DNA of 35,001 nucleotides from an uncultured Bacillota bacterium (lineage in GTDB: Bacteria > Bacillota_I > Bacilli_A > RF39 > UBA660), in NCBI GenBank assembly GCA_946541645.1, contig CAMNJS010000004.1, positions 1 through 35,001 of the forward strand, given 5' to 3'. The position numbers were made by a program, and so were the translations under genes. The notes under the pieces are model-generated. The model saw only the letters and a program-made list of their open reading frames with translations, did no database searches and was not told the origin of the DNA. The number at the start of each line of letters is the position of its first letter. Position 1 is the stretch's first letter. Shown here in pieces: positions 7,930 to 35,001 of this stretch.

Positions 7930-9390
7930 GTGGAAAAAATTAGTATTAAAATAGAGGAAACTATCGATAAAATCAAAAAAATATACGGAAATAGCTCCGA
8001 TATTAACACAAGAATCATCAATATCAAAGGTACAAAAATTGGATGCATTTTCCTAGAAAGTTCATCAGCAACAGCAACCATAAGTGATTTCATCATTAAA
8101 AGTGCGATCTATGCTGAAAAAAGCAAAACTATTTTTGATAACTTATTTAATACCTTAAAAAACAAGCTTTTTAATTGCCAATTATTTACTATAGAAAACT
8201 TTAAAGATTTTCCTTACTATTTATCAAGCGGATTTACAATAATCATTGTCGACGGAAATGATAAAGCTATTGTCATGGAGACAAGAGCAAACCTAGATAG
8301 AGGCATAACAGAATCCACAAGTGAACCAATAATTAGAGGCCCAAAAGATAGCTTTACCGAAAGTCATTCAAAAAATCTTGGACTAATCCGCAAACGAATA
8401 AAAGATCCAAACTTATGGTTTGATGAAATTAAACTAGGAAGAAGAACCAAAACAAGAATTACCATTGCTTACATAAATAATATAGCTGACAAAATAAAAA
8501 TTAGAAAAATAAAAGATAGATTAAATGAAATAGATATAGATGGCATACTAGATAGTGGAAATATCAGAGACTATTTAACAAGTCAAAAATCAATTTTCCC
8601 ACAAATAAAAAGCAGTGAAAGGCCAGATACCGCATGTCAAGAACTTTTAAACGGTAAAATAGTAATCCTAGTAGAAAATAGCCCATTCATATTAATACTA
8701 CCTACTGTATTTTTAGACTACATAAAATCACCAGAAGATCAAAATCAAAAATCCATAAACATAAGTTTTACAAGAATATTAAGGTTTTTTGCCCTAATAA
8801 TCACAATTTTAACTCCAGCCATTTACATTGCGATTGCCACATATGATCAAAACACAATCCCAGATAAACTACTTATTTCACTAGCCGTTCAAAGAGAAGG
8901 AGTTCCTTTTCCGACATTTTTTGAAATAATTTTATTTATGACAGTATTTGAAATACTAAGAGAAAGTGACCTAAAAAGTCCAACAAACATGAGTACCGCT
9001 ATGAGCATCGTTGGTGCCCTAGTCTTAGGACAAGCCGCTGTTGACGCATCTATAGTATCACCTATAACTATTATTATTGTCGCGATAACATCCATATGTA
9101 GTCTCATATTTCAAGATAGTGACTTTATAAACGGTATAAGATTTTGGCGTTTTCTTTTCATACTAGCATCAAGCATGTTAGGAGTAATTGGAATATTATC
9201 GATGTCTTTAATATGGATAACCAAAATGGCTTCCTTAGAAAACCTAAACACAAGTTTCCTATCACCAATCGCCCCGTTTGACAAAACAGGAAATCAAGAC
9301 GCTATCATTAAAGAAGCTACGCCAAATATATATGAAAGGCCAAAATATATAAGTTCAAAAAACATAATTAAACAAGGAGGAAGAAAATGA
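7930..9390 (+). CDS. gerA-family A subunit: Spore germination protein, GerA family (A subunit)
   Basis: Central YLTSQKSIFPQIKSSERPDTACQELLNGKIVILVENSPFILILP and AVQREGVPFPTFFEIILFMTVFEILRES are GerA-family signatures. GTG start. Confidence 0.93.
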   Translation: MEKISIKIEETIDKIKKIYGNSSDINTRIINIKGTKIGCIFLESSSATATISDFIIKSAIYAEKSKTIFDNLFNTLKNKLFNCQLFTIENFKDFPYYLSSGFTIIIVDGNDKAIVMETRANLDRGITESTSEPIIRGPKDSFTESHSKNLGLIRKRIKDPNLWFDEIKLGRRTKTRITIAYINNIADKIKIRKIKDRLNEIDIDGILDSGNIRDYLTSQKSIFPQIKSSERPDTACQELLNGKIVILVENSPFILILPTVFLDYIKSPEDQNQKSINISFTRILRFFALIITILTPAIYIAIATYDQNTIPDKLLISLAVQREGVPFPTFFEIILFMTVFEILRESDLKSPTNMSTAMSIVGALVLGQAAVDASIVSPITIIIVAITSICSLIFQDSDFINGIRFWRFLFILASSMLGVIGILSMSLIWITKMASLENLNTSFLSPIAPFDKTGNQDAIIKEATPNIYERPKYISSKNIIKQGGRK

Positions 9391-10559
9391 AAAAAGCACT
9401 TACAGTAATTATTATTTGTCTCCTACTTTGCGGATGCGAAGATTATGCTGAACTAAACAACCTTTCAATTGTAACAGCTGCTGGCATAGATAAAGCTGGT
9501 GATAAATATGAAGTTACCCTCTTAATCGCTAACTCTCCTAAAAACGAAACAACAAATAAAGAAGGAGAAGCTAAAACAACCGTATATCAAGGCAAAGCCA
9601 AAACCATTGCTGAAGCCGTAAAAATAATAGATAAAAAAACGCCAAAACAGCTATATTTTAGTCATATAAACGTCGTAGTTATATCAGAAGAAATAGGAAA
9701 AGAAGGTTTTTTAAACGTTGCTGACTGGTTAATAAGACATCCCCAAACCAGAAACAGATTTTATCTAATGCAAGTAAATGAAAATAAAGCTGGAGATGTA
9801 TTAAAAATAATTTCCCCTCTAGAATCTTTTCCTTCGCAAAGTATAGCAACACTAATCGAATCAAATAAAAATTCAAGATCTGTTGGGGATACCGCATCTT
9901 ATAGTAATTTTATTGGACGAATATTAGAAACTGGCTATGAGCCCATAATGTCAACTATAAAAATAAATGGCACTGTAAAAGAAGGAAGTACGCAAGAAAA
10001 CCTTGAAACAACCGAGCCTAAAACATACCTAAGTCTAGGCCCTCTAGCCATATATAAAAAAGATAAACTAATTGAAACAACCACAAAAAAACAAACCGAT
10101 TTAATATATGTTATTACAAACGAAGCCAAAGAATTACTATATAATATAAAATATAAAAATAGCAGCATTAATATCTTTTCCAATGCTGTAAAAACTAAAA
10201 TAAAATTAAAAAATGAAAATAGTGTCGATATATACGTCGAAGCTAAAGGCAGTATATATGAAGCAAACGGAAATATAAACTTAAACAGTACAAGCGAAAT
10301 AGAAAACATAGAAAAAATATGGAAAACATCAATGAAAAAAGACTTAATCAAATTAATAAAACAAATAAAAACTGAATATAAAAGTGATATTTTCGGATTT
10401 GGTAACATGATTTATAAAAATTATCCTCAAAAATGGAAAAAAATCAAAGATAAATGGAATGAAAAATATTTTAATAATCTTAATATTAATGTTCACACAA
10501 AAACAGAAATAATATCAACAGCCTCACTAACAAAGACATTAAGGGATGATGAAAAATGA
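9387..10559 (+). CDS. gerA-family C subunit: Spore germination lipoprotein, GerC family (C subunit)
   Basis: Lipobox LLLCGCEDYAELNNLSIVTAAGIDK typical of Ger(x)C; overlaps gerA by ATGA. Confidence 0.92.
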   Translation: MKKALTVIIICLLLCGCEDYAELNNLSIVTAAGIDKAGDKYEVTLLIANSPKNETTNKEGEAKTTVYQGKAKTIAEAVKIIDKKTPKQLYFSHINVVVISEEIGKEGFLNVADWLIRHPQTRNRFYLMQVNENKAGDVLKIISPLESFPSQSIATLIESNKNSRSVGDTASYSNFIGRILETGYEPIMSTIKINGTVKEGSTQENLETTEPKTYLSLGPLAIYKKDKLIETTTKKQTDLIYVITNEAKELLYNIKYKNSSINIFSNAVKTKIKLKNENSVDIYVEAKGSIYEANGNINLNSTSEIENIEKIWKTSMKKDLIKLIKQIKTEYKSDIFGFGNMIYKNYPQKWKKIKDKWNEKYFNNLNINVHTKTEIISTASLTKTLRDDEK

Positions 10560-11671
10560 AAAAAATAAGTACTTTTGAATATAATACTTTAATATGGTTT
10601 TTAATTAGAGCTTGCTTCACAGAACTTACATTTACAAGCATTCTATACTATACTAGACAAGATTCTTGGATTAGCATAACAATAGGAATTATATTAGGCC
10701 TTATTCCATTTTCTATATATGAATTTCTAAAACAAAAATATCCAAATGAAAACATAATAACATTAAATAACAAGCTGTGGAAAAAATTTGGAAAAGTTTT
10801 AAATATGTTCATTTTTTTAGGAAGCCTAGCCATAGTCACTTGTACATTTTGGATTTTAGTCCATTTTTCTAGTGCCCTATTTCTTTACAAAACAAATTTA
10901 TGGATTATCTCACTTGCACTAATAATTCCCACCAGCTACGCTGCTTCAAAAACGATAAATATTATTAGTAAAGTAAGCTTAATGCTTTTTTACGCTTCAA
11001 TGATTTTTAATGTTCTTATTTTATTTGGACTCATCGGAAACATCGACATAAGTAATGTTAAACCTATTTTTGAAAGTAACGTTAAAGACATTTTAAAATG
11101 TTCATTCATGCTTGTTGGCATAAATATAATGAAACTATTTTACTTAAATATTATAAATAAAAACATCATAAAAAACTATTCCAGCAAATATAGCATAATT
11201 ATGTACTTTATAACAACAATAAATCTTTTAATTATCGCATTCACAACAGTTTGTGTATTTGGTATAGACCTTTCAACTTTATATGAATATCCTGCATTTC
11301 AAATTTTAAAAAGAGTAAACATATTAGGAATTTTTGACCGCATCGAAAGTATCTTATCAATAGAAGCACTATTTTCCATGTTTATACAAATAACTATCAT
11401 AATATATTATTTAAAAGAAACGATATTAGAAACATTTAAACTCAATAAAAAAACAAATAAATATATAGTAATATCTATTTGCCTTTTCATCTATATTATA
11501 AGTAATATAATTTTTATAACCCATGAATCTGGGGAAAAATTCTTTATAAATCCACTTCTTTACATAACCTATATAATATTATTTATAATACCTTCAATTA
11601 CACTAATTAAAAGTTTAAATAATATTAAAATACCTAAGCGTCAAAAAAATAGCGCCAGCCAAGAAGGCTAA
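10556..11671 (+). CDS. gerA-family B subunit: Endospore germination permease, GerB family (B subunit)
   Basis: About 10 TM segments; overlaps gerC (ATGA), completing an A-C-B operon. Confidence 0.9.
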   Translation: MKKISTFEYNTLIWFLIRACFTELTFTSILYYTRQDSWISITIGIILGLIPFSIYEFLKQKYPNENIITLNNKLWKKFGKVLNMFIFLGSLAIVTCTFWILVHFSSALFLYKTNLWIISLALIIPTSYAASKTINIISKVSLMLFYASMIFNVLILFGLIGNIDISNVKPIFESNVKDILKCSFMLVGINIMKLFYLNIINKNIIKNYSSKYSIIMYFITTINLLIIAFTTVCVFGIDLSTLYEYPAFQILKRVNILGIFDRIESILSIEALFSMFIQITIIIYYLKETILETFKLNKKTNKYIVISICLFIYIISNIIFITHESGEKFFINPLLYITYIILFIIPSITLIKSLNNIKIPKRQKNSASQEG

Positions 11672-14386: not shown

Positions 14387-14896
14387 TCAAAACAAAATAG
14401 GAACTACAATTAAACTCATAATAACCATAAATAAATCAGCAAGCAATCCTACCCAAAGAGCATACTTTATTTTTTTTATACCTACTGATCCAAAATACAA
14501 AGTAATTATATAAATAGTTGTATCACTAGAACCCTGAATAACAGAAGAAAGAATACTAATAAAACTATCTGGTCCATATATGCCATATATGTTATTTAAT
14601 AAAGCAAGTCCAAAACTGCCAGAAAGAGGTCTCATTATAGCTATAGGAAGAACCTCAAAAGGTATTTTTAGAAATAAAAATAGTGGTTTTAAAAAATTAA
14701 ATAAAAAGTCTATAACTCCACTATTTTTAAAAATATTAACAGCCAAAATCATAGCAAGCAACGATGGAAACATACCTTTTACTATTGAAAACCCTTCACT
14801 GGCTCCCACCACAAAACTATCATAAACATTTATTTTCTTTAAATATCCATATATAATTATTAAAAAAACAATAAGTGGAATAAATAAATCTGTCAT
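14387..14896 (-). CDS. spmB: Spore maturation protein B
   Basis: Gate-domain membrane protein; MRPLSGSFGLALLNNIYGIYGPDSFISILSSVIQGSSDTTIYIITLYFGSVGI typical of SpmB; start overlaps the spmA stop (ATGA). Confidence 0.92.
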   Translation of the reverse strand: MTDLFIPLIVFLIIIYGYLKKINVYDSFVVGASEGFSIVKGMFPSLLAMILAVNIFKNSGVIDFLFNFLKPLFLFLKIPFEVLPIAIMRPLSGSFGLALLNNIYGIYGPDSFISILSSVIQGSSDTTIYIITLYFGSVGIKKIKYALWVGLLADLFMVIMSLIVVPILF

Positions 14897-15465
14897 TTTT
14901 TTGCCCACAGCCTATCAATCATAAGTCCAAACAATAATGAAAAAAAGCTAACAATTATACAAGGCAAAATAATACTTGAAGGCCTATCACTGTTATGAAG
15001 CATCCTAAGCGAAATAATTGTTGTCGGAATAAGCGTAAAACCGCAAGTGTTCATAACCAAAAAAGTAATCATACTTCTGCTAGCAACATCCTTTTCACCA
15101 TTTAAATTTTGAAGTGACTTCATAGCTTTTATTCCAAATGGGGTTGCCGCATTTCCAAGTCCAAAAATATTTGCAATAATATTTGAAGAAATATATCCAA
15201 AAGCTTCATGGCCTTTTGGGATTTCCGGAAATAATCTGATTAAAAATGGTTCTATTTTCCTAGAAAGCTTACTTAAAAGGCCCGATTCTTTAGCAATATT
15301 CATAATCCCAAGCCAAAGCGAAATAAGCGGAAAAATTTGAATTATTAAATCAAACGTTACCTTTCCACTATTTAATATTTCTCTATTTAAAACATTAAAA
15401 TTTCCACTGCTGATTAAATAAATAGACCCTGTAATTATTAAAAAAATCCATAGCTTATTAATCAT
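14893..15465 (-). CDS. spmA: Spore maturation protein A
   Basis: LISLWLGIMNIAKESGLL, NIIANIFGLGNAATPFGIKAMKSLQ, MNTCGFTLIPTTIISLR; ATGA overlap with the upstream gene. Confidence 0.93.
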   Translation of the reverse strand: MINKLWIFLIITGSIYLISSGNFNVLNREILNSGKVTFDLIIQIFPLISLWLGIMNIAKESGLLSKLSRKIEPFLIRLFPEIPKGHEAFGYISSNIIANIFGLGNAATPFGIKAMKSLQNLNGEKDVASRSMITFLVMNTCGFTLIPTTIISLRMLHNSDRPSSIILPCIIVSFFSLLFGLMIDRLWAKK

Positions 15466-23024: not shown

Positions 23025-23048
23025 AAGACAAGTTTTTTTACTTGTCTT
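23025..23048 (-). terminator. Terminator at the 3' end of the T4SS coupling-protein gene
   Basis: AAGACAAGT TTTTTT ACTTGTCTT, perfect 9-bp arms, overlapping the stop codon; downstream T-rich on the minus strand. Confidence 0.7.
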
Positions 23049-25251
23049 ATTCGTCATCACTAAAGAAATCATCAAAGAACTGATCATCAGTAACATAGTC
23101 ATCATTTTCATTAACTTTTTCCTTCTTAAAATCAGAAACTTTTACTGGCTTTTTATTTTCTTCTTTAACTGTCTTATTAACTCTATCAGTAATCTTAGCT
23201 GCAAAATCTGATGAAGAAAAAGTATTTTTCATATCTTTTCTATTAGCTTCAAAAGTAGCTTCTTTATGATTAACCTCTTTTATATCCTCCCTAGGTACAA
23301 CAACAGGTTTTTTAACCACTTCAATTTTAGGGGCAGAAGTTCGCTTACTAGCCGTTCTCTTAGCTGCCTTTTCTTTCTCTTCTTTTTCTAGTTCAGCTAT
23401 TTTTGCATCTATATTTTTAATAAAATCACTTGTTGAAAGAGGTTTATTATTAGCATTCATCTTATCAGCAAGACCAGGCATAACTGAATTAACTAAATTA
23501 TTCATTTTTTCTTGACGTTTTGCGTCAACAAATCCTTTCAAATCAAATATATGAACAGGTTCCTTTTCCCTATCAGGATAAACTGCTTTTTCAACTTTTT
23601 CATAAGGACCCCAATCAATTTGATAATTAAGCTTTAACTTAGTTTTAAAAGGATTCATACGAAGTCTAAGCAAAATAACTTCACCCATTTTTAATTTCTG
23701 CAAATCACTAACAGTAATTAATGGACGAGTTTCTTTCTTCTCTTTGCCATCTTTGTCCTTTTCTTTTATTTCATATTCACCGCACATCTCACTTATTTCT
23801 TTTAAAGCGGCAAGTTCAGTACTAATCAAGTAAACTATATTTGTACAGTTACCCCTAATAGTATCTCCCTTTTCTTTACCGTAAACTTCAGCAAGTTGTG
23901 CATAGTTTTGAATAACAAAATAAAATCTCATCTTACGTGAACGCGCCGCTGAAACCATCGTATCAACATCTTTAAGCGGTGGCATATTAGCAAACTCATC
24001 TAGAATAAAATTAGTTCTATATGGAAGTTTTCCCCCATTTTTTTGTGCATAATCAACTAGTGCCTCATAACACTGTTTAAGGAAAATAGTAACAAGTGAA
24101 TGATATGTTTTCTTTTCGTCTTGAACTATTATAAATACAGCTGTTTTTTTACTTCCAATATCTTCAAAATCAAAATCACTATGTGAAAGCATTTCAGATA
24201 AATTTTCACGAGCCGCAAATAATCTTAATTTCTGCTTAAATACAGATAAAATACTACCCTTAGTATCTGTAGGTGCCACAATCGTCGATGAAGCACTAAT
24301 ATAAGCTGGAGAATTTGGATCTTTACTCTTAAAATACTCATTAACATAAACAGTATTTGGCCCGCATTTTTCTTCTCCAATTGTCGTAAATGCGTTTACA
24401 CTATTTAAATTAATTTCTTCCTCTTTTGCATCCTCAAATAAGCCTAAACAAATTCCTGAGAAATAATCAGCTGATGTCTTTTCCCAGAAAGGATCTTGAT
24501 TTTGTGCATTCTCATCATAAAGAATGTTCATTGCAAGGTCATCAGTAAGTTCATTAGCCTTATCAGCATTGCCATTTTTAAAATACTTATATGGTAAATG
24601 AAGCGGATTCCAGCCACTTCCTTTTTGAGGATCACGTAAATTAAGTAATACTACATTATAACCTCTTTTTTTAAGCATTTCAGAAGTTTCTTCATATATT
24701 TCACCTTTAGGATCGGTTATAATCATAGACTCATCGTGTTTTGCTAAACTATGAACAAGAGGAAAAATAGCAACTTGAGTTTTTCCGGCTCCAGTAGAAC
24801 CAATTATTATATTGTGTCCCTCGCCATCATCAACCCACATTTTTTTACCATCATTAATTAAAGGAATTCCACCATATTCAGATTTTTCATCTTGGACTCT
24901 AACCATTTTAAGTTCCTTTTTAATTTCACTATCAGTAGCCCATCTAGAATACCCCTTCTTATTTTTCTTTCCTTCTGTAGAAAAACCAAATCCTTCTTCT
25001 ATATCAAAAAATCTATCTTTAACACTATATATACTGGCTGCCAAAGCTATTATATAGCAAAAAATAGTAAGCCCTATAAAGTCTGGCGAAAAAGCGGGAA
25101 ATGGATTAAGCCCATGAAATGGATGATCTAAATCACCTTTTGCAAATTGAACAACATTCAAAAGTGCAACAGCCACAAAAAACAAAAGCACCACACAATA
25201 AATACCAAACATTGCCCAATCTTTTGATTCAGCTCTAAACTTTAATTTCAT
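23047..25251 (-). CDS. T4SS coupling protein, VirD4/TraG family ATPase
   Basis: N-terminal TMs; Walker A NIIIGSTGAGKTQ; IITDPKGEIYEETSEMLKKRGYNVVLLNLRDPQKGSGWNPL; FILDEFANMPPLKDVDTMVSAARSRKMRF; AGGAGG Shine-Dalgarno. Confidence 0.95.
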   Translation of the reverse strand: MKLKFRAESKDWAMFGIYCVVLLFFVAVALLNVVQFAKGDLDHPFHGLNPFPAFSPDFIGLTIFCYIIALAASIYSVKDRFFDIEEGFGFSTEGKKNKKGYSRWATDSEIKKELKMVRVQDEKSEYGGIPLINDGKKMWVDDGEGHNIIIGSTGAGKTQVAIFPLVHSLAKHDESMIITDPKGEIYEETSEMLKKRGYNVVLLNLRDPQKGSGWNPLHLPYKYFKNGNADKANELTDDLAMNILYDENAQNQDPFWEKTSADYFSGICLGLFEDAKEEEINLNSVNAFTTIGEEKCGPNTVYVNEYFKSKDPNSPAYISASSTIVAPTDTKGSILSVFKQKLRLFAARENLSEMLSHSDFDFEDIGSKKTAVFIIVQDEKKTYHSLVTIFLKQCYEALVDYAQKNGGKLPYRTNFILDEFANMPPLKDVDTMVSAARSRKMRFYFVIQNYAQLAEVYGKEKGDTIRGNCTNIVYLISTELAALKEISEMCGEYEIKEKDKDGKEKKETRPLITVSDLQKLKMGEVILLRLRMNPFKTKLKLNYQIDWGPYEKVEKAVYPDREKEPVHIFDLKGFVDAKRQEKMNNLVNSVMPGLADKMNANNKPLSTSDFIKNIDAKIAELEKEEKEKAAKRTASKRTSAPKIEVVKKPVVVPREDIKEVNHKEATFEANRKDMKNTFSSSDFAAKITDRVNKTVKEENKKPVKVSDFKKEKVNENDDYVTDDQFFDDFFSDDE

Positions 25252-25387: not shown

Positions 25388-26179
25388 TTATTTTTCAAAC
25401 AAACAATCCTGATATAATTGTAAATCATTATCATTTATTTTATATATTTGATAACAAGAATAAAAAGTAGGAATATCAACAACATCTTTACCTATTACCA
25501 CTTCTTTTTTACCGTCATTATCAAGATCAATAACTTCCATTATCTCGAAAACATCACTATTAGAAGAGCTAATCGTGTCAATTACCGTATTATTTTTTAC
25601 TAAAACTAAATAAGTTTTAACAGTATAATCCATTATGTCTAACTTAAAATTAGTAAATCTATAAATAGTTTCTATTGAACCATCACCATCAAAATCTAAA
25701 CTTAATTTAAGTAAAGTTCCTCTATAATTATTTAATAAATTATTATCATAAACTTTAGTAACTTCCTTTATTATATCATCATCACCAGAATCGTAAGTTT
25801 GTATTTCATAATCAGTTGGTTTTATATCATCTATTCCTGTATATGCAAACTTAAAATCATTAGTCGGAATACTATTATAATCTTTATCAAAAAAATGCCA
25901 TTTATTAGACAAAAACTGCAATGTGTCAGCATTATATTTACTTGTTCCATTATATAAAACATATTTATGCCCCGTCACATCAGCATCAACCGCAGTTTTT
26001 TGATACCATTTTCCTTTACTTTCATGCCAAATCAAATAATTGCCAATAAGTAAGTATTTATTAGAATTAATCTTATCCCTATTATTAATAAACAAAGCGA
26101 AAAAAATATAACAAGCCACAATTGCTGCAACGATTACAATCCACTTAATATTCTTTTTTACTTTTTCAAAATCTTCCAT
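25388..26179 (-). CDS. Membrane-anchored extracytoplasmic protein with two DxDxDG-type Ca2+-binding-like motifs
   Basis: N-terminal TM IKWIVIVAAIVACYIFFALFI; DFDGDGSIE and DLDNDGKKE. Confidence 0.7.
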   Translation of the reverse strand: MEDFEKVKKNIKWIVIVAAIVACYIFFALFINNRDKINSNKYLLIGNYLIWHESKGKWYQKTAVDADVTGHKYVLYNGTSKYNADTLQFLSNKWHFFDKDYNSIPTNDFKFAYTGIDDIKPTDYEIQTYDSGDDDIIKEVTKVYDNNLLNNYRGTLLKLSLDFDGDGSIETIYRFTNFKLDIMDYTVKTYLVLVKNNTVIDTISSSNSDVFEIMEVIDLDNDGKKEVVIGKDVVDIPTFYSCYQIYKINDNDLQLYQDCLFEK

Positions 26180-26302
26180 AAACACCAACCTATCCTAATA
26201 AAATTATATAATGTAAAAATAACAATGTCAATTATAAAAAAAATAGTATTCTTATTGCTAAAAAAATCCCTAATTGATATAATTTAAATAGAAGGTGAAA
26301 AT

Positions 26303-26836
26303 ATGGAAGACGGAATAATTTATCCAAAATTAATATTAAAAATAATTATAGGAATAATAGCTGCAATAATCTTAGTTATAACATATAGACTTTTTATGAC
26401 AAATACCAACACTAAAAAATACGAAAATTATTTGCTAAAAAATGGATTTGAACTCAAAGAAGATAATACATATCATAAACAAACAACTAACAATAATATG
26501 ATAATAAACTATTATGTATATAATGATACATCGATAATGACAAAAGAGATTATAAATAATTCTAATAATAGTAATAACTCTTTAGGCCTAAAATACGAAA
26601 ACAATATAATATATGCTACATATAGTATCGAAGGAAAAAATAACGATGGAAATTACGACACCGCAATACAAAAATCAGAATACAATGTAAAAAACCAGAA
26701 TTATTCATGTAAAATAATTATAGATGGTCACTTTGATGACAAATGTAGTGAAATGAAAAAAGAAAGCATAAAATTTAATGATGAAATTCAAAAAATATTA
26801 TCCCAAAATAATTTAAAAATGAAATATATAAAATAA
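26303..26836 (+). CDS. Single-TM extracytoplasmic hypothetical protein
   Basis: N-terminal TM IIIGIIAAIILVITYRLF; GAAGGTG upstream of ATG; only plus-strand gene in the T4SS region. Confidence 0.65.
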   Translation: MEDGIIYPKLILKIIIGIIAAIILVITYRLFMTNTNTKKYENYLLKNGFELKEDNTYHKQTTNNNMIINYYVYNDTSIMTKEIINNSNNSNNSLGLKYENNIIYATYSIEGKNNDGNYDTAIQKSEYNVKNQNYSCKIIIDGHFDDKCSEMKKESIKFNDEIQKILSQNNLKMKYIK

Positions 26837-26861
26837 AGGTGAATTAATTCACCTTTATTTT
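26830..26861. terminator. Perfect palindromic bidirectional terminator
   Basis: AAAATAAAGGTGAATT|AATTCACCTTTATTTT, 32-bp perfect palindrome between convergent genes. Confidence 0.8.
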
Positions 26862-29696
26862 TTATTCACTTTTATATAATTTTACACGTTCATTATAGTA
26901 TTCTCTAGACCAGTAATAAGATGTATCAGGATCATTATAATGACTAAAATCTCTTTCCGCGTTATAATTTCCATTATAGAATAAATGAAATTCAACTTCA
27001 CGTCTAATAATACCACCAAAAATTCCTTCAAGGCCATTATATTTTAAGAATAGCCTATAACCTTCATAACTTCTAACATCATCAAGCTCGGCAAGTTCAT
27101 CCATTAAATGATATGAGCCAACTGGCCAGTGATGGTTTATTAAAGCAAGTGCATGATATTGATATTCCTCTAGTTTTTTACCTCCAGAAACCTCCTCAAA
27201 ATATTGCCTCATATCTTCAACTCTTGTTTCCATGTACTTGATAGCCATTTCTTTAATATAAGACTGTTCAACACATCCATTAGACATATCTGAATCAAAA
27301 GTAGTATATCCTACTTCATTAGCCATATACACGCCATATTTTTGAGTTATTCCATATGCTGTTGAATAACCAACATCAGCCAAATCAGCATATATTTTTC
27401 TAGCAACATAACCTTCTTTACCTCTAACTGTACAAGTTTCACCAAGCATACCTTCAAGTCTTCCAAGCATATCAGTTAAATCAGCAATACTGCCACTAGG
27501 TCTATAACATACATTACTACCATTAACTCTATCACTACTAATAGCTTGTGTATTAACAAGATAAGGTAATAAATATCTATTTAAAAAACTAATATCTTTA
27601 TATCCTTCTCTATCTATACCTGAAGAATTAAAAGGATTTGGATCAAAAACAAATATTTGATTAGTCTCCTCGTTATAATGATCAAGTAAAATAAAATGTC
27701 CATAAGTTGTTGGATATACAGCACTTTTATTACCTGCTATTAAACACAATATTTTTTTGCCTTCTTTTAAACTATTAATAATAGAATCCATATTTATATC
27801 AATTTGCTGACCAGACAATCCCCACTGGGATGTAAAATATGGTGTGTTACTAGGAGAATTAAATTTTGAGCCTGAACCACCAGTAGCATCAAGATAACCT
27901 TCCTGTATAGCATCATTAACAAACTTAACAGTATCAAAATCTTCTCCAGTAAACATATAATAAGCTCCCATTAAAGACGCCGTCCCGCAGCCAACATTAC
28001 TCATAAATGTTGATTGAACAGGAATATTTTTTATTGCACTGGTAGAGCCTAATTGATAATATTTAGGAAGAACGGTTAAACGTTTTTTATATTCATCACT
28101 TTTATAGTTAAAATTAGAAGAACTACTAGAAGAACTTCCCGAAGAGCCAAATGCAACATCAGTTGCGCAAAAAGAATTATAACTAGAAAGAGAATGGCCC
28201 TTCGCAGTATCTTGTATTCTAGCTAATCCTGTTTCTGAATATGATGGATCCATAACATATATAGTTCCATTTTCAATATGGTCTAAAGCTATCCAGTGAC
28301 CTAATGACAAATAAAGTATTACAAACCTTTGATTATTATTACCACAAGGTCTATTAAGCTCATTACTTAATACAGAAACTGCATTACTCATACTAACAGA
28401 ATTTTCTCTACTAATAGTAGTAAAATTTGGAGCTATTCCAGTCCAACTATCCCAGTAAAGATTACTACTAGTATAACTAGCATTTTTAACAAACACACCA
28501 GGATCTATACTAGGGACTGTAAGCTTCGTTCCAGATTTTGCAATTAAATAAGCCATTGAGGTTGAAGTGCAGCCAGCTTGAGCAACGGTTAATCCTCCTG
28601 CCCCTAATGGTATACTTCCCCATCTTTCATCCGTCTGTCGCCAATTTGTCATATCGCCAGTTCCTGCCGAACTAGCATATGTACATGTATCTTCCTCTTG
28701 AGGAAACAAAAATTTATAAAATTCAGCAAATTCTATAATATTATCAGCAATTTCTTTTTTCTTACCAAGGATTTTACTTTCTTGAGCACTTTTCTCAGAT
28801 CCCTCTGACATCTTTTCTAACTCATCTTCCATTTGTCTAATGTCATCAAAAGTTCCACCAATAAAACCATATTTACATATATTAGCAGTAGAAGTAAAAC
28901 GATTATATGCATCCACAAGATTTCCTTGATTACTAAAACTATTTATAAGTGGCAAAGAGTGAAAAACACCGACAGTTTTTTCCCAAGATGATTTAGTTAC
29001 ACAAATCGCGGCATCCCCAATAGAAGAAGCTACATATTCACTTTTACTCGCTAACCATTCTAAAAATGAAACACCTTCTAACTCTTCGTCTTTAGCAACT
29101 CTACTTTTAAGGCCAAATCCAGAATTTATTAATGCATTTTTATAACTTTCTTCATCATATTTATCATTGACATTAGAATTAAACATTATTATAAGTGCAG
29201 AATCTAACATGTCAATTTCACTTTGAGTAATACCATCATATGAAGTACTACCTGTTACACTAAGTACTCCCAAAAAATTTCTTACTTTTTCAGTAAAACT
29301 CTTTTCATCAAAATCCTTATCATATTCAGCATCTAATACTTCGTAATAATCTCCTTGAAATAATACAGTTGACGCTAAAACAACTTTATCGACATGTGCA
29401 CCAAAAACATCGCCAATAATATTAAGTTTAGTTTTAAACTGATCCTCTTTCATCTGGGCAAGTTCTTCGTTAGTACAAAGAATGCACCCACCTTTTAAAA
29501 GGTTATCAACTCTTTCAACATTTTTTTGAACATTACCAAGTAAATAAGAAACAGCTCCAATTATAATAACTAAAACAATGAAAAAAGAGGCGATTCCGCC
29601 TAAGACTGTAATTTTGACAGTTTTAGCATTTTTACTTTCACTATTATCAGAAGAAAATAAACCGCGCACTAAATTTTCAATTCCAGCCTTAAACAT
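26862..29696 (-). CDS. T4SS-associated multidomain wall-remodelling protein: TM anchor, two C39-like peptidase domains, C-terminal GH24-like lysozyme domain
   Basis: C39-like 1: NWRQTDERWGSIPLGAGGLTVAQAGCTSTSMAYL ... GHWIALDHI ... YVMDPSY. C39-like 2: VQSTFMSNVGCGTASLMGAYY ... GHFILLDHY ... FVFDPNP. GH24-like: GKEGYVARKIYADLADVGYSTAYGIT ... YQYHALALINHHWPVGS ... GIIRREVEFHLFYNG. GGAGGTGA upstream of ATG. Confidence 0.75.
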   Translation of the reverse strand: MFKAGIENLVRGLFSSDNSESKNAKTVKITVLGGIASFFIVLVIIIGAVSYLLGNVQKNVERVDNLLKGGCILCTNEELAQMKEDQFKTKLNIIGDVFGAHVDKVVLASTVLFQGDYYEVLDAEYDKDFDEKSFTEKVRNFLGVLSVTGSTSYDGITQSEIDMLDSALIIMFNSNVNDKYDEESYKNALINSGFGLKSRVAKDEELEGVSFLEWLASKSEYVASSIGDAAICVTKSSWEKTVGVFHSLPLINSFSNQGNLVDAYNRFTSTANICKYGFIGGTFDDIRQMEDELEKMSEGSEKSAQESKILGKKKEIADNIIEFAEFYKFLFPQEEDTCTYASSAGTGDMTNWRQTDERWGSIPLGAGGLTVAQAGCTSTSMAYLIAKSGTKLTVPSIDPGVFVKNASYTSSNLYWDSWTGIAPNFTTISRENSVSMSNAVSVLSNELNRPCGNNNQRFVILYLSLGHWIALDHIENGTIYVMDPSYSETGLARIQDTAKGHSLSSYNSFCATDVAFGSSGSSSSSSSNFNYKSDEYKKRLTVLPKYYQLGSTSAIKNIPVQSTFMSNVGCGTASLMGAYYMFTGEDFDTVKFVNDAIQEGYLDATGGSGSKFNSPSNTPYFTSQWGLSGQQIDINMDSIINSLKEGKKILCLIAGNKSAVYPTTYGHFILLDHYNEETNQIFVFDPNPFNSSGIDREGYKDISFLNRYLLPYLVNTQAISSDRVNGSNVCYRPSGSIADLTDMLGRLEGMLGETCTVRGKEGYVARKIYADLADVGYSTAYGITQKYGVYMANEVGYTTFDSDMSNGCVEQSYIKEMAIKYMETRVEDMRQYFEEVSGGKKLEEYQYHALALINHHWPVGSYHLMDELAELDDVRSYEGYRLFLKYNGLEGIFGGIIRREVEFHLFYNGNYNAERDFSHYNDPDTSYYWSREYYNERVKLYKSE

Positions 29697-29725
29697 CTAA
29701 ATCACCTCCATACAACTATTTTAAA

Positions 29726-31510
29726 TTAAAGTCCTCCACCAGAGCCAAATGAATCTAGCTCTTGCTCAGTAACAACAATGTTAATTCGCATTCTCTTACT
29801 GCCACAAACAAATAACGCCTCGCCTTGATTATAGCCTTTTATGCTTTCTTTTTCATTATCGTTTAAATCAATTAACTTAGATAAATCTTCAACAGCCTGC
29901 TTACGAAGTCCCATGACTAAATAATAAGAAGCATTATCAAATATAGCCTTTCCTTGTGTAATAACAGATGGATCACTAAAATCCGTTGGTTGTTGTGTAC
30001 TTATAATTGTACCAGTATTATATTTACGAGCCCTTCGTTGAACTTGGGCCAAGAATTCAGCACCCAAAGTATTATTTCCAGAAAGAAGTACATGAGCCTC
30101 ATCAACAGTTAATATTGTATTTATACTAGTATCAAGTGTTAAACTCCAAGCATATTTTAAAACATTAAAGAACAAAGCATTTCTAATATTAGTATCCGCA
30201 TTCATAAGTTCCCTGATATTAAAAACTATAAAATTGCTCTTAGGAGAAATCGTAGTTTTACCATCAAAATAAAATCTAAGCTCATTAATAAGTGGTCTTA
30301 ACTTTAACTCCAAACTTTCTAATATATCTCTTTCTCTATTTTGTTCAGGCATAGCTGTTATTTTACCTCTTACAGTTGCATAAACATCTCTAAAAGTAGG
30401 ATAATCAGCAGAAGTAAAATTAGTAAAATCAGTATTAAAGTCTATATTAAACCTCTTATATGTTTCTTGTACAACTTCACTAAATATATTAAGAACATCT
30501 TCCTTTATAGAAGGATCATAATACTTCATAAATGCTTTTACAGTTTGTAATGACCTTGTAAGAACAGCATATCCCATACCTTGTTTTATTTCATCCTCGT
30601 CAGCGTCCATTATAACCTCAAGTGGATTTACCATGCCATAGTCTCCACCTTTTCCAAGGTCAATAAAATCTCCACCATAAAGCCTAGTCATTTCTTCAAA
30701 TTCACCTTCTGGGTCGATTATAACAATTTTATAATCATTCCTAATATGAGATCTGATCAATAATTTAGCAGCTGTAGATTTACCACTACCAGACGTACCA
30801 AGTATAATCATATTAGCATTATTACGATTATTTTCTTTTTGAACCTGATATAAAAATTGATTAAATAAAATTACTCCTCCGGAGAAATCAACACCAAGTA
30901 AAGTAGAAAGTCCAGGATCCTTAATACTATCAAAAACATAAGGATACATAGCTGCTAACGTCGGAGCTGGAATAGGAGTTCCTATTCTATCTTCAATTTC
31001 TTGTTTAGGAAAAATTGGAAGTATAGATTTTAATACTTGCTCCTGCTCAAATCTTAAAGGAAGAGCCCTAATATCCATTGCTTCTAAATAACTTTTTAAT
31101 TGCATTTTTTTTGCAGTAAGCTCATCCTCAGAATCAGCAGTAATCATCAAATGCATTTGAAAATCATAAATTTTAGCTTGACTTGAAGCAAGCTGCTGAA
31201 CAAAAGATTCCAAAGACTCATAATCCTGCCTTATTCTTTCTTGAATAGTAACATCACGTTCTTCTTGATATCTTACTTTTAATTCAGCAACCTCTTTATT
31301 AATCATTTTAGAAATTACACTAAATGGTAAAGGTATATGTTTAAGTGCTAATTTGACTCCAGGCATACTTGTTAAATCAGCCAAAAATCCAGGATAAATC
31401 GCCTTAGGATATGATATACAAGTTAAAATAGTAGAATACTTATCGCTAACAATAATTTCACTAGGTTTAAATTCTAACCCCTTAGGGGCAATTTGTGTCT
31501 TAATATCCAT
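29726..31510 (-). CDS. VirB4/TraE-like T4SS ATPase, C-terminal (motor) part
   Basis: Walker A MIILGTSGSGKSTAAKLLIRS, Walker B NTILTVDEAHVLL, RRARKYNTGTIISTQQPTDF. Confidence 0.93.
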   Translation of the reverse strand: MDIKTQIAPKGLEFKPSEIIVSDKYSTILTCISYPKAIYPGFLADLTSMPGVKLALKHIPLPFSVISKMINKEVAELKVRYQEERDVTIQERIRQDYESLESFVQQLASSQAKIYDFQMHLMITADSEDELTAKKMQLKSYLEAMDIRALPLRFEQEQVLKSILPIFPKQEIEDRIGTPIPAPTLAAMYPYVFDSIKDPGLSTLLGVDFSGGVILFNQFLYQVQKENNRNNANMIILGTSGSGKSTAAKLLIRSHIRNDYKIVIIDPEGEFEEMTRLYGGDFIDLGKGGDYGMVNPLEVIMDADEDEIKQGMGYAVLTRSLQTVKAFMKYYDPSIKEDVLNIFSEVVQETYKRFNIDFNTDFTNFTSADYPTFRDVYATVRGKITAMPEQNRERDILESLELKLRPLINELRFYFDGKTTISPKSNFIVFNIRELMNADTNIRNALFFNVLKYAWSLTLDTSINTILTVDEAHVLLSGNNTLGAEFLAQVQRRARKYNTGTIISTQQPTDFSDPSVITQGKAIFDNASYYLVMGLRKQAVEDLSKLIDLNDNEKESIKGYNQGEALFVCGSKRMRINIVVTEQELDSFGSGGGL

Positions 31511-32052
31511 TAACTCATCACCGTCCTAAAAGTATCAGTTTGTCCACCATTTAAGAAATTATCTAAAACCACCCTCAAATCATCATTAGATGTTTGCGTT
31601 GCATTAAGCCCTGCATTGGCAAAAGCTTGAACCAAATTTCTGATTTTTTTCTGAATTTTATCAAAATCTCTTTCCTTAAATAGCAAATAAAACTCAGTAT
31701 CAACAACATTATTGTTTGTAAACATATTAGCCTTGTTTATATCATCAAGTATTAATTTTCGCTTAACTGGATTAGTCTGTGAATTATATAAAAGCTGTAA
31801 TCTAGATAAATATGCTGTAATATCAACAGGTCTATCAGCTACAATAATCCAAAATTCATAGTCTATAAGATTATAAACGTTTCTTAAATTACTAATTATT
31901 AAATTTTGAGTTTCGATATCGGAAATAAAAATATTTCTAGGGAATATTTTTACACCTGTAACCTTTTCATCATTATCAAGCATAATAACACCATTGGTTA
32001 TTGACTTAATAGGAACAAAATCATTTGTATATTTACTTCTCTCCGAACTCAT
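31510..32052 (-). CDS. VirB4-like N-terminal domain encoded separately
   Basis: FVPIKSITNGVIMLDNDEKVTGVKIFPRNIF resembles VirB4/TrsE N-terminal regions; stop overlaps the ATG of the motor ORF by 1 nt (TAATG). Start at 32052 overlaps the PrgI-like gene. Confidence 0.75.
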   Translation of the reverse strand: MSSERSKYTNDFVPIKSITNGVIMLDNDEKVTGVKIFPRNIFISDIETQNLIISNLRNVYNLIDYEFWIIVADRPVDITAYLSRLQLLYNSQTNPVKRKLILDDINKANMFTNNNVVDTEFYLLFKERDFDKIQKKIRNLVQAFANAGLNATQTSNDDLRVVLDNFLNGGQTDTFRTVMS

Positions 32053-32344
32053 CTTTAACACACCATCCCTTCCAAATAAATTTTTCTCTAGATGTATAAA
32101 AACGATAAACTTCCATTATAAATACCCTAACATTGTGATAATTGGGAATTGGAATTACCAAAAATCCAGTTGTAACTCCTGGTAGTAAATCGATTATAGC
32201 TTTTAATAAATTATTTGGCTGCACTATTAATAAAAGTAAAATTGTAATAGCAAGCCCAGAACCAAATAATATTAAATCAAACGGTGTGAAAAGACCTAAT
32301 ATAAGCATTGACCTTTTCGAGTTCGCTGGTATCAAATAATTCAT
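32033..32344 (-). CDS. PrgI-family T4SS membrane protein
   Basis: Small two-TM protein immediately before virB4; C-terminal FYTSREKFIWKGWC. Confidence 0.8.
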   Translation of the reverse strand: MNYLIPANSKRSMLILGLFTPFDLILFGSGLAITILLLLIVQPNNLLKAIIDLLPGVTTGFLVIPIPNYHNVRVFIMEVYRFYTSREKFIWKGWCVKDEFGEK

Positions 32345-32374
32345 AAACTATTCCCCTTTCTATTTTATAAATAT

Positions 32375-34498
32375 TTAATGTTTAAAGTGTGCCTGTCTAG
32401 AAGTATCCTTAATCATAGTATCACGATCTTTAGCATTATTATATTTTTCATCACTTCTAATTTTAATTGCTTGATTTTTTGAAGCTTTTCCTGCTGCTTC
32501 AAGTGCTTCCCAGTCGGCTTTATCAACATCAAATTTATAATTAGGGTCTCCCGGATAAATATCTTTAACATCTGACTTCATAGCTTTTCTCTCAAGCTCT
32601 ATTTCTAGGTCATTGCTACTATTGATATAGTTAGCAATTGCCGCATTTTCCTCATCCGTAAGAGCACCCATTGCAGTATTATATTCACTATAAATTTGAT
32701 TATCGCTTAATCTACTCATCTGCTGATCATATTCATTCTGAAGATCCGTAATTGCTTTAGTCCTCTGCTCATCAGTAAAATGTTTACTATTTTCAATTGC
32801 AGCCCTTTCATTTTCAAAATCAGATGTCAGCTTAGTTCTAGAATCAAACACAGATTTCAACAATTCATCTCTTCTTATTCTAGCTGCTTCCTTTTTGCTT
32901 TGAATAGTCTGCCAATTTTCATCTTTTTTAGCCAAAGCTGTTTTAGCTATATCCTTAATCTTATCAACGTGTCCTTTAATAGCATCATGCTTTTTAGCAT
33001 TTCTTTCTAAAGATTCATATTCAGTAGGTCCTCCAAAAGCATACCTAGCCCTATCAGCTAGCCTACCTGGGGCGCCAAAAAATCCTCCAGTTTGCTGTCT
33101 AACTTCCATATTTCTCATAGTCCTTCCAGCCGATAATTTTGCAGCTTTTAATGGGTCTTTACTGTTAGTCAAACCTCCAAAACCTCCTCTAGCAATTCCT
33201 GAAGCCACACCGCCAAGAGCAGAACCAAAAACCGGTTTATTAAAGCTTGCTGCGGTTACTCCTGCAGCTATACCAGTAGTAACTCCACCAAATATTGCAC
33301 CACCTGCAACCCCCAAAGCTCTACCAAAAGCATCATTTTTTAACGGATTAAAAGTAAGACTACCAGAATCTTTTATTCCAAATACGCTTTCCAACAATTT
33401 AGGAACTTGCTTAGCAAAAGTAAGTAAACCAATTATTACCATGACAACTACTAAGCCAGACATTAATCCATTTGGAATGTCGCCGTTTAAATATACAGCA
33501 TTGTCACCAGATAAAAGTGCACCAGAAATTAAATCTACAACATAAAATACAAAATAAATAATTGCAAGTCTAATAAATAATGATAAATATGTATTTAAAC
33601 ATTCTTTAGCCCATCTACTAAGCATGCCATCTTTCCCAGCTTGCCTAGGGTCCATATAAGAAATAATTGGTACAGGGGCAATCATTTCTAAAAATGCAAG
33701 TTTTACTACTCTAACTGCAATATCTATACAAAAGCCTATCATAAAAACCGCAATTAATCCGCCGACAGCAGTCGTAATTAATGGCATATAATCAAATAAA
33801 TATTCACCGTCGACAGTAACAAGAACAGCATCTCCAAAACTATTGAAATTTCTGTCACCAGTAACGCCGAAAAAGTCATCTATTGCAATATTCTTATCAT
33901 TTAACTTATTTGCCACATTTTGTAAACAATAATCATTACTAGCCATTGCTTTAGTTCCTAAAATAGGTGTATCTACACATTCAGACATTACCTTGGTATT
34001 TACAGGCATAAATGTACTATAAACTAAAAATTTCATATCTTCAGATAATTCAGCATTTGTACTATTGGCGTTTTCAGAATTATTAGTGCCTAAAACAAGA
34101 TTGCCAATTATATTACTATCTAATACCCTTGTTTGAACATTTAGTGCGAAACTAAATATAAAAGGAGTTGCCACAACTAAAATTAATGATATCAACACAT
34201 TTCTAACAAGTTTCCCAAATCCTTTAGTCTTATCCGAGAAAGAATCAGGGTCCATAATATATTGTAAAATAGAAAAAGCCAATCTAAACAGCATAAATAT
34301 ACCCAAAAATGCATATATTCTGCTTGAAAAGGTAACTATTGGACTAACTGCTGCCCCTTCTTCAGCGACTCTAGACATTCCAAATAAATCTAAATTTGCC
34401 AAATAAAGAAGCAACTCATATCCCCAAGAAATAAGTTGATAAACTATACGGTCCAAAAAGGTAAAAAATGTCCTAAATAAATTAAAATACCACGTCAT
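32375..34498 (-). CDS. VirB6/TrbL-like polytopic T4SS channel protein with cytoplasmic C-terminal extension
   Basis: Multiple TMs, MIAPVPIISYMDPRQAGKDGMLSRWAKECLNTYLSLFIRLAIIYF, Gly/Ala-rich stretch, then ~300 aa charged, coiled-coil-like region. GGAGG upstream. Confidence 0.85.
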   Translation of the reverse strand: MTWYFNLFRTFFTFLDRIVYQLISWGYELLLYLANLDLFGMSRVAEEGAAVSPIVTFSSRIYAFLGIFMLFRLAFSILQYIMDPDSFSDKTKGFGKLVRNVLISLILVVATPFIFSFALNVQTRVLDSNIIGNLVLGTNNSENANSTNAELSEDMKFLVYSTFMPVNTKVMSECVDTPILGTKAMASNDYCLQNVANKLNDKNIAIDDFFGVTGDRNFNSFGDAVLVTVDGEYLFDYMPLITTAVGGLIAVFMIGFCIDIAVRVVKLAFLEMIAPVPIISYMDPRQAGKDGMLSRWAKECLNTYLSLFIRLAIIYFVFYVVDLISGALLSGDNAVYLNGDIPNGLMSGLVVVMVIIGLLTFAKQVPKLLESVFGIKDSGSLTFNPLKNDAFGRALGVAGGAIFGGVTTGIAAGVTAASFNKPVFGSALGGVASGIARGGFGGLTNSKDPLKAAKLSAGRTMRNMEVRQQTGGFFGAPGRLADRARYAFGGPTEYESLERNAKKHDAIKGHVDKIKDIAKTALAKKDENWQTIQSKKEAARIRRDELLKSVFDSRTKLTSDFENERAAIENSKHFTDEQRTKAITDLQNEYDQQMSRLSDNQIYSEYNTAMGALTDEENAAIANYINSSNDLEIELERKAMKSDVKDIYPGDPNYKFDVDKADWEALEAAGKASKNQAIKIRSDEKYNNAKDRDTMIKDTSRQAHFKH

Positions 34499-34532
34499 AA
34501 ACCTTTAACCTCCTTCATATAAGTTAAAAATT

Positions 34533-35001
34533 TTATTCTTGTACTTCGTTGCTAAATGAAGCATTTATATTGCACACAGGATTATCAGACTTAACTCCCC
34601 ATAAATTGCCTGCACCATTTACTACCTGAACAATAAATGAAACTAGCGTAGGTAATAGTAATAAAATAACAAGGCATATTATTCTTACCTTTAATTTTTT
34701 AAAAAACTTAGGTAATCCATCATCCTCGCTGCCAGCTATAACTCCAACAAGATTAAAAATAGTTAAGCCAACAACTGCAATAATTCCAACTACGCTTATA
34801 ATAGTAAAAATTTGATTTATCAAATCTTTAATGTCCGAATTTATAATGTTGCATGCATCAGTAGGATCAACTTCCTCATATTTAGAAGTTTTTTCTTCAG
34901 TCCCCCATTTAGTAATAGCATCTACTGCATTATCATAAATTTCATTATCATCCTCATAAGTAGTCGATGAATCCTTATTCGATTTTACGCCAGTAACAGC
35001 G
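34533..35001 (-). CDS. Pilin-like/VirB2-like two-TM T4SS protein, 5' end beyond the window (partial)
   Basis: The listed 96-aa ORF starts at an internal TTG; the frame stays open to the edge: ...AVTGVKSNKDSSTTYEDDNEIYDNAVDAITKWGTEEKTSKYEEVDPTDACNIINSDIKDLINQIFTIISVVG... Confidence 0.75.
   Translation of the reverse strand, partial: AVTGVKSNKDSSTTYEDDNEIYDNAVDAITKWGTEEKTSKYEEVDPTDACNIINSDIKDLINQIFTIISVVGIIAVVGLTIFNLVGVIAGSEDDGLPKFFKKLKVRIICLVILLLLPTLVSFIVQVVNGAGNLWGVKSDNPVCNINASFSNEVQE

Follow-up and report, generated by a model that had tools for sequence, protein, structure and literature searches.

The window, by which we mean the whole 35,001-nucleotide stretch of DNA analysed here, encodes a 944-residue protein that is likely to be the wall-opening, VirB1-type component of a T4SS fixed in the chromosome of its host family, with two C39-like domains predicted to cut peptides and a GH24-like domain predicted to cut glycan. 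At the level of sequence, support for this assignment comes from the domain families, the membrane anchor, the catalytic residues, the position of the gene within the T4SS gene run, and the conservation of the surrounding machine from the genus up to the family.

Domain organization of the hydrolase

The gene occupies positions 26862-29696 on the minus strand and begins with an ATG; when the plus strand of the same interval is translated, it is full of stops. The initial annotation, which gave no strand, was correct about the open reading frame, and all of the motifs that it quoted are present. Because the C-termini of the protein's relatives are not homologous, we did not fold it at full length and instead used two separate structure models, one of residues 1-725 and one of the GH24-like domain, with mean pLDDT values of 70 and 78, respectively (moderate confidence). 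For the N-terminal region, a hydrophobic stretch at residues ~28-53 (29538-29615, minus strand), where the model has a long helix (residues 24-69), is the predicted membrane anchor. Since the hydrolase domains all follow this helix, sequence and model together predict that they are placed outside the cell. The anchor is a variable feature: some of the congeneric hydrolases have a signal peptide instead. Residues 80-332 (28701-29459, minus strand) make up an alpha-helical region of unassigned fold that is kept in nearly all members of the genus and appears to be specific to it, with profile comparison returning a single weak match among the proteins encoded at the equivalent position in other genera.

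Two C39-like domains come next. The second of these, at residues 535-720 (27537-28094, minus strand), matches PF13529 (Peptidase_C39_2) with an E-value of 3.9e-7 and a score of 31.2 bits, above the curated cut-off of 24, and the second C39 domain of the nearest relative matches the same family at 1.8e-10. Judged by the curated score and by its Gln-Cys-His-Asp set (Q548, C570, H667 and D685), this domain is a Peptidase_C39_2-type, papain-like cysteine peptidase. The first, at residues 340-525 (28122-28679, minus strand), gave on its own weak Pfam matches to the DUF3335/C39 family that fall below the curated cut-offs; its tentative assignment to the papain fold comes from conservation, profile and structural comparisons. 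Q354, C376, H467, W468 and D483 show no or almost no variation across 18-27 relatives, and the profiles of the first and second domains align with an E-value of 1.3e-6, with the Gln, Cys, His and Asp residues in register. When the model of residues 1-725 was submitted to Foldseek, papain-like enzymes led the results: the pseudomurein endoisopeptidase PeiR came first (E 2.2e-3), with phytochelatin synthase among the further matches and the C39 peptidases of ComA and PCAT1 appearing later. The two C39-like Cys/His/Asp sets claimed in the initial annotation are borne out by conservation, by profile alignment and by the papain-like top matches of the model, and for the second domain also by PF13529. 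Although the second domain passes the curated cut-off for PF13529 proteins, the window's arrangement differs from theirs in that its C39 domains are in tandem, linked to a T4SS and fused to a GH24-like domain. PeiR, which leads the structural matches to the C39 region, is about 20% identical to it in sequence and acts on archaeal pseudomurein.

For the C-terminal domain (residues 726-944; 26865-27521, minus strand), the window protein itself has no match to PF00959 or to any other Pfam family. A five-sequence profile of the domain matches GH24 lysozymes in the PDB (6et6, E 6e-4; 8b2s, E 0.015) as well as PF00959-positive proteins from the equivalent position in other genera (best 3e-11), and relatives of the protein match PF00959 over nearly the full length of the model (E 6e-4 and 3e-3). 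Foldseek matches for the modeled domain were weak and not significant (E 0.4-1) and included numerous entries for T4 lysozyme, pesticin and further GH24 muramidases. The profile and the relatives' PF00959 matches support the lysozyme-like domain proposed in the initial annotation, but not its choice of catalytic residue: E761, at the start of the 'EG-x6-Y-x-D' pattern, is not conserved among the relatives, and the invariant Glu is E748, which lies in an LEG motif terminating a predicted helix, like Glu11 in T4 lysozyme. The position of T4 Thr26 probably corresponds to Ser778. The T4-type Glu-Asp-Thr triad with T4 spacing is not found here, the E748-Asp spacing of ~25 being longer than that in T4, and because the Asp and Thr parts of the triad are not strictly kept, we use "GH24-like" as a safe name.

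Wall-enzyme families in the VirB1 slot

The hydrolase gene follows virB4 in the same orientation after ~30 bp, and it lies between virB4 and virD4 both here and in the syntenic loci. We therefore refer to the ORFs between these two genes as the slot; across 60 host-family loci outside the genus, we examined 70 such ORFs. Their Pfam matches include M23 (26), SpoIID (26), CHAP (13), glucosaminidase (7), NlpC/P60 (7), C39_2 (7), phage lysozyme (4) and phage tail lysozyme (3). SpoIID is also present in eight of the nine C39-bearing slot proteins that were scanned individually, and M23 and phage lysozyme occur together in two other slot proteins. Because the slot holds endopeptidase and glycan-cleaving families in these relatives, the C39 and GH24-like domains of the window protein appear to substitute for known wall hydrolases.

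In agreement with the initial annotation, which read the protein as a non-canonical occupant of the CwlT/VirB1 hydrolase slot of a T4SS, the position of the gene, the membrane anchor and the family-wide substitution of domains all point the same way. The protein shares with the Gram-positive VirB1 type its encoding within a T4SS cluster and its membrane anchor; where that type has an SLT or muramidase domain plus CHAP, NlpC/P60 or LytM, the window protein has C39, C39 and GH24-like domains. This combination supports describing it as a VirB1-type hydrolase with non-standard domains, for which we regard the novelty of the enzyme architecture as moderate and the genetic setting as the more interesting aspect.

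The hydrolase family is present in 38 of 44 congeneric MAGs, and its named relatives come from rumen and gut MAGs labelled as uncultured Bacilli, Erysipelotrichaceae, Tenericutes or Candidatus Coprosoma. (The contig scan used a subset of the alignment, that of all 27 hydrolase relatives being too diverse.) The first C39 domain type is found at 16 of the 20 loci within the genus and at 16 of the 60 from other genera. The complete C39-C39-GH24 order singled out in the initial annotation proved rare, occurring in three genomes (the window's own, L002 and L007), and in three others (L003, L004 and L006) the same pair of C39 domains is followed by an alternative C-terminal domain. The hydrolase had no match in the plasmid, phage and IMG/VR sets that we searched; therefore, within them, the architecture is not a widespread module of mobile elements or phages. 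The alternative C-terminal domain, of ~150 residues, is strongly conserved in most congeners (IPEEFGNGGYTVT...WGHNNGQN...EWxGKRVxSAxNLG; for example, L044 9766-10224). A profile of it (IPEEFGNGGYTVT...WGHNNGQN) gave no convincing match in the PDB, and one family member matches ELLD weakly.

A conserved T4SS with Tad-type genes

In the direction of transcription, pilin-like genes, virB6, prgI and an apparently split virB4 lie upstream of the hydrolase gene, and genes for an FG-GAP-like protein and for VirD4 lie downstream; all of those described here are on the minus strand unless noted. The C-terminal part of the VirB4 ATPase (594 aa; 29726-31510) matches NF045975 with an E-value of 4e-101. 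Its probable N-terminal part, recognized by position, is a separate ORF (183 aa; 31510-32061) with a counterpart at all 60 loci from other genera, such that VirB4 is apparently split into two adjacent ORFs throughout the host family. A PrgI/VirB3-like membrane protein (32033-32344), assigned by size and position, and a VirB6-like polytopic membrane protein (32375-34498), assigned by position and topology, were likewise found at all 60. Near the edge of the window is the C-terminal part of a T4SS pilin-like protein (34533-34823; PF18895, E 1.3e-4), whose gene probably starts further upstream; L055 has a fuller homologue of 313 aa (E 7.6e-6). On the other side of the hydrolase gene, a small single-TM protein (26303-26836, plus strand) is kept at the same place in the genus, and a membrane-anchored FG-GAP/EF-hand-like protein (25388-26188) is a component of the locus as judged by Pfam and synteny. 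The VirD4 coupling ATPase (23047-25251; NF045973, E 8e-95) is present at 56 of the 60 loci. It ends in an acidic and aromatic C-terminal tail (DDQFFDDFFSDDE), and an FDDFF tail was seen in 32 of 33 VirD4 proteins checked across the host family.

In L055 the run continues with pilins, one TadZ-like protein, a pair resembling pseudopilins and a pair of TadB/C-like membrane proteins, followed by CpaF (T2SSE, E 3e-28), CpaB (RcpC, E 8e-8) and a DUF5411 protein, and L108 shows the same gene order. The names TadB, TadC and TadZ reflect size and position, Pfam giving no match for those three. At the start of the Tad run in L055 (340-3102) there is also a 920-aa secreted, Cys-rich protein with no Pfam match, a possible adhesin. 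CpaF, a VirB11-superfamily ATPase, is found in 80 of 97 high-quality host-family genomes; by comparison of coordinates, 29 of those 80 have it 7-12 kb upstream of virB4, sharing strand and contig with that gene, and in others it is on a different contig.

The machine is conserved well beyond the genus. VirB4 orthologues are present in 35 of 44 congeneric MAGs (12 of the 14 high-quality ones) and in 168 of 193 host-family genomes (134 of the 148 genera), with identities that are mostly 67-81%. In a class-wide sample, matches to VirB4 with E < 1e-120 numbered 38 in the host family and one in another family. Congeneric genomes have the locus at one fixed site, next to rhodanese-rmuC-rnr-smpB, and among the truncated stretches that represent the 60 other-genus loci, rmuC is seen downstream in at least 34.

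The locus yielded no relaxase, where "relaxase-less" refers to the two families searched, PF03432 and PF02486, and to the gene content of the locus. PF02486 was absent from all 44 congeners. PF03432 exceeded its cut-off in eight of them, in every case on a contig other than that of the T4SS locus, and seven of these eight contigs carry a second, divergent VirB4 (G001:C24, G029:C2, G016:C9, G028:C3, G017:C78, G007:C95 and G021:C81). The contigs with both a relaxase and a second VirB4 look like ordinary ICE-like elements and provide an internal contrast to the core locus. The initial annotation, which compared the gene with those of Gram-positive conjugation systems, missed that this is not an ordinary conjugation or ICE system: the locus is chromosomal and core to the family, Tad-type genes accompany it, and we found no relaxase next to it. 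Of the marks of an ICE or conjugative element, a relaxase of the two families searched does not accompany the T4SS, and the fixed chromosomal site speaks against mobility.

Probable gene fusion and domain turnover

In many congeners, a separate gene for an anchored peptidase (NlpC-like, CHAP-like or C39) and one for a lipoprotein are found between virB4 and the gene for the C39 protein, and the C39 protein of such two-gene loci carries a signal peptide. In the fused forms, the separate peptidase and lipoprotein genes are missing and the hydrolase has an extra domain that resembles the separate peptidase: L005 versus L096 gave an E-value of 1e-25 and L011 versus L106 one of 4e-60, with weaker matches for the C39 cases (2e-5 to 1e-4). 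Because the separate genes are missing from the fused forms and the extra domain matches them, the window order probably arose when an anchored peptidase gene beside virB4 became fused to the downstream gene for a secreted C39 protein, a direction that is read from gene content and domain matches rather than from a tree.

Comparison of near relatives reveals a mosaic. The T4SS block of the window (26774-35001) is 98-100% identical in DNA to L055 11650-19910, from a different species. Between the window and its nearest relative, the flanking core genes are 81-86% identical in DNA and the Tad part 84%. The parts of the hydrolase that flank the second C39 domain are mostly 90-100% identical to those of the nearest relative, whereas this domain, the most divergent segment of the hydrolase between near relatives, drops to 62-70% in DNA and about 50% in protein before the lysozyme domain returns to 100%. 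The end of the window overlaps contig G000:C51 by 55 bp, exactly where identity to the relative shifts from ~99% to 84%. Recombination and chimeric MAG assembly are both plausible explanations for the divergent island at the second C39 domain. Within the genus as a whole, VirB4 is 76-100% identical, as opposed to about 25-53% for most members of the hydrolase family, whose wall-cutting domains appear to have been exchanged among relatives more than once.

Proposed role and alternatives

In the mechanism that we favor, the N-terminal anchor would hold the protein in the membrane with its domains exposed outside. The two papain-like C39 domains would most likely cleave stem peptides or cross-links and the GH24-like domain would most likely cut the glycan strand, and their joint action would open a local gap in the peptidoglycan where the VirB4/VirB6/PrgI/pilin channel is built. 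We infer the enzymatic activity, the bonds cut and the target, the cell's own wall rather than a neighbor's, from sequence. The suggestion in the initial annotation that the C39 domains cut wall cross-links gains from the substitution seen in the slot and from the top match to PeiR, with the activity itself being a prediction.

It is possible, although less likely than not, that within this VirB1 role some of the domains are degenerate and serve in wall binding or regulation, leaving the GH24-like domain or one C39 domain as the sole enzyme. The model for such an arrangement is PrgK, the VirB1 protein of Enterococcus pCF10: because only one of its three domains is active, with the LytM and CHAP domains inactive and down-regulating the muramidase (PMC11323569), some of the window domains may also be regulatory or binding modules. 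Inactive VirB1 homologues have, in addition, been proposed as adhesins (PMC12857230). Arguing against degeneracy, the Gln, Cys, His and Asp residues are kept in both C39 domains and E748 is invariant.

A distinctly less probable alternative is that the protein, or its second C39 domain, acts on another cell, as an antibacterial effector or an opener of the recipient's wall that works via the T4SS, with domain swapping that tracks the target cells. Such a role would fit the extreme domain turnover relative to VirB4, the second C39 domain that differs so sharply from its flanks, the appearance of pesticin, a GH24 bacteriocin, in the Foldseek results, and the small divergent membrane proteins encoded alongside (25388-26188 and 26303-26836). 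However, the window form has a membrane anchor, ordinary wall hydrolase families occupy the slot across the host family, and the adjoining small genes, putative at best as immunity genes, are components of the locus in most congeners.

We give hardly any credence to the idea, raised in the initial annotation for bacteriocins and pilins, that either C39 domain, or the two together, would process a protein substrate of the T4SS (a pilin, an adhesin or a bacteriocin-like leader) in the manner of ABC-transporter C39 domains: strict MEROPS C39 peptidases do cut double-Gly leaders, the ComA and PCAT1 peptidases are among the fold matches and pilin-like genes belong to the same gene run, but no LanT/ComA-type ABC transporter adjoins the hydrolase gene, no ABC transporter domain of the kind found in MEROPS C39 bacteriocin exporters is present in that gene or its neighbors, and many slots in the host family are without C39 and hold M23, SpoIID, CHAP or NlpC.

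Relation to known systems

For the preferred reading, that of a VirB1-type component acting on the cell's own wall, PrgK offers a three-domain precedent: it too is membrane-anchored, has three extracellular hydrolase domains and is encoded with a Gram-positive T4SS (PMC11323569). It differs in having the order LytM-SLT-CHAP and in residing on a conjugative plasmid, whereas the window has C39-C39-GH24 at a chromosomal, family-core locus. VirB1 proteins of the CwlT/TraG/Orf14 type (Tn916, pIP501) share the slot and the presumed role of the window protein but combine an SLT or muramidase domain with NlpC/P60 or CHAP. The domains that a 2025 review depicts in its figure of Gram-positive VirB1 proteins are CHAP, SLT, MUR and LytM only, and the same review describes VirB11 as universally absent from Gram-positive T4SSs (PMC12857230). 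The nearby CpaF may work for a Tad-like pilus and not for the T4SS.

At the level of the whole system, the nearest analogue is the T4SS of Patescibacteria, which is chromosomal and lineage-wide, has PF18895-type pilins and mostly lacks a relaxase; wall enzymes are encoded beside virB4 there as well, and in Ca. S. epibionticum the genes that follow virB4 include homologues of peptidases and lysozymes (PMC12102498). The window system differs in its phylum, its host being among the Bacilli, in its Tad/CpaF genes and in its fixed rmuC-rnr-smpB site, and the likeness is one of gene content and organization rather than of a VirB4 tree. In the open-access literature we found no description of the host family's T4SS/Tad system, and this family-core machine is apparently undescribed. 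A tentative proposal, which we hold with somewhat less than even confidence, is that the core, relaxase-free machine joins the CpaF Tad motor to the T4SS channel for contact with other cells instead of conjugation, with the shuffling in the slot fitting it to different walls.

A T4SS is thus core to these small-genome gut Bacilli; CpaF is encoded close to it in many genera, no relaxase was detected, and its slot has sampled many wall-enzyme folds. The system offers a natural experiment in how such a channel crosses the cell wall. Together with Patescibacteria, the host family would make two lineages where a machine of the conjugation type seems to have been turned into a fixed cell function. 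Elsewhere in the window (7930-11671 and 14387-15465), within a genome of ~1 Mb, there are spore germination (GerA/B/C-like) and SpmA/SpmB-like genes, named from their translations.
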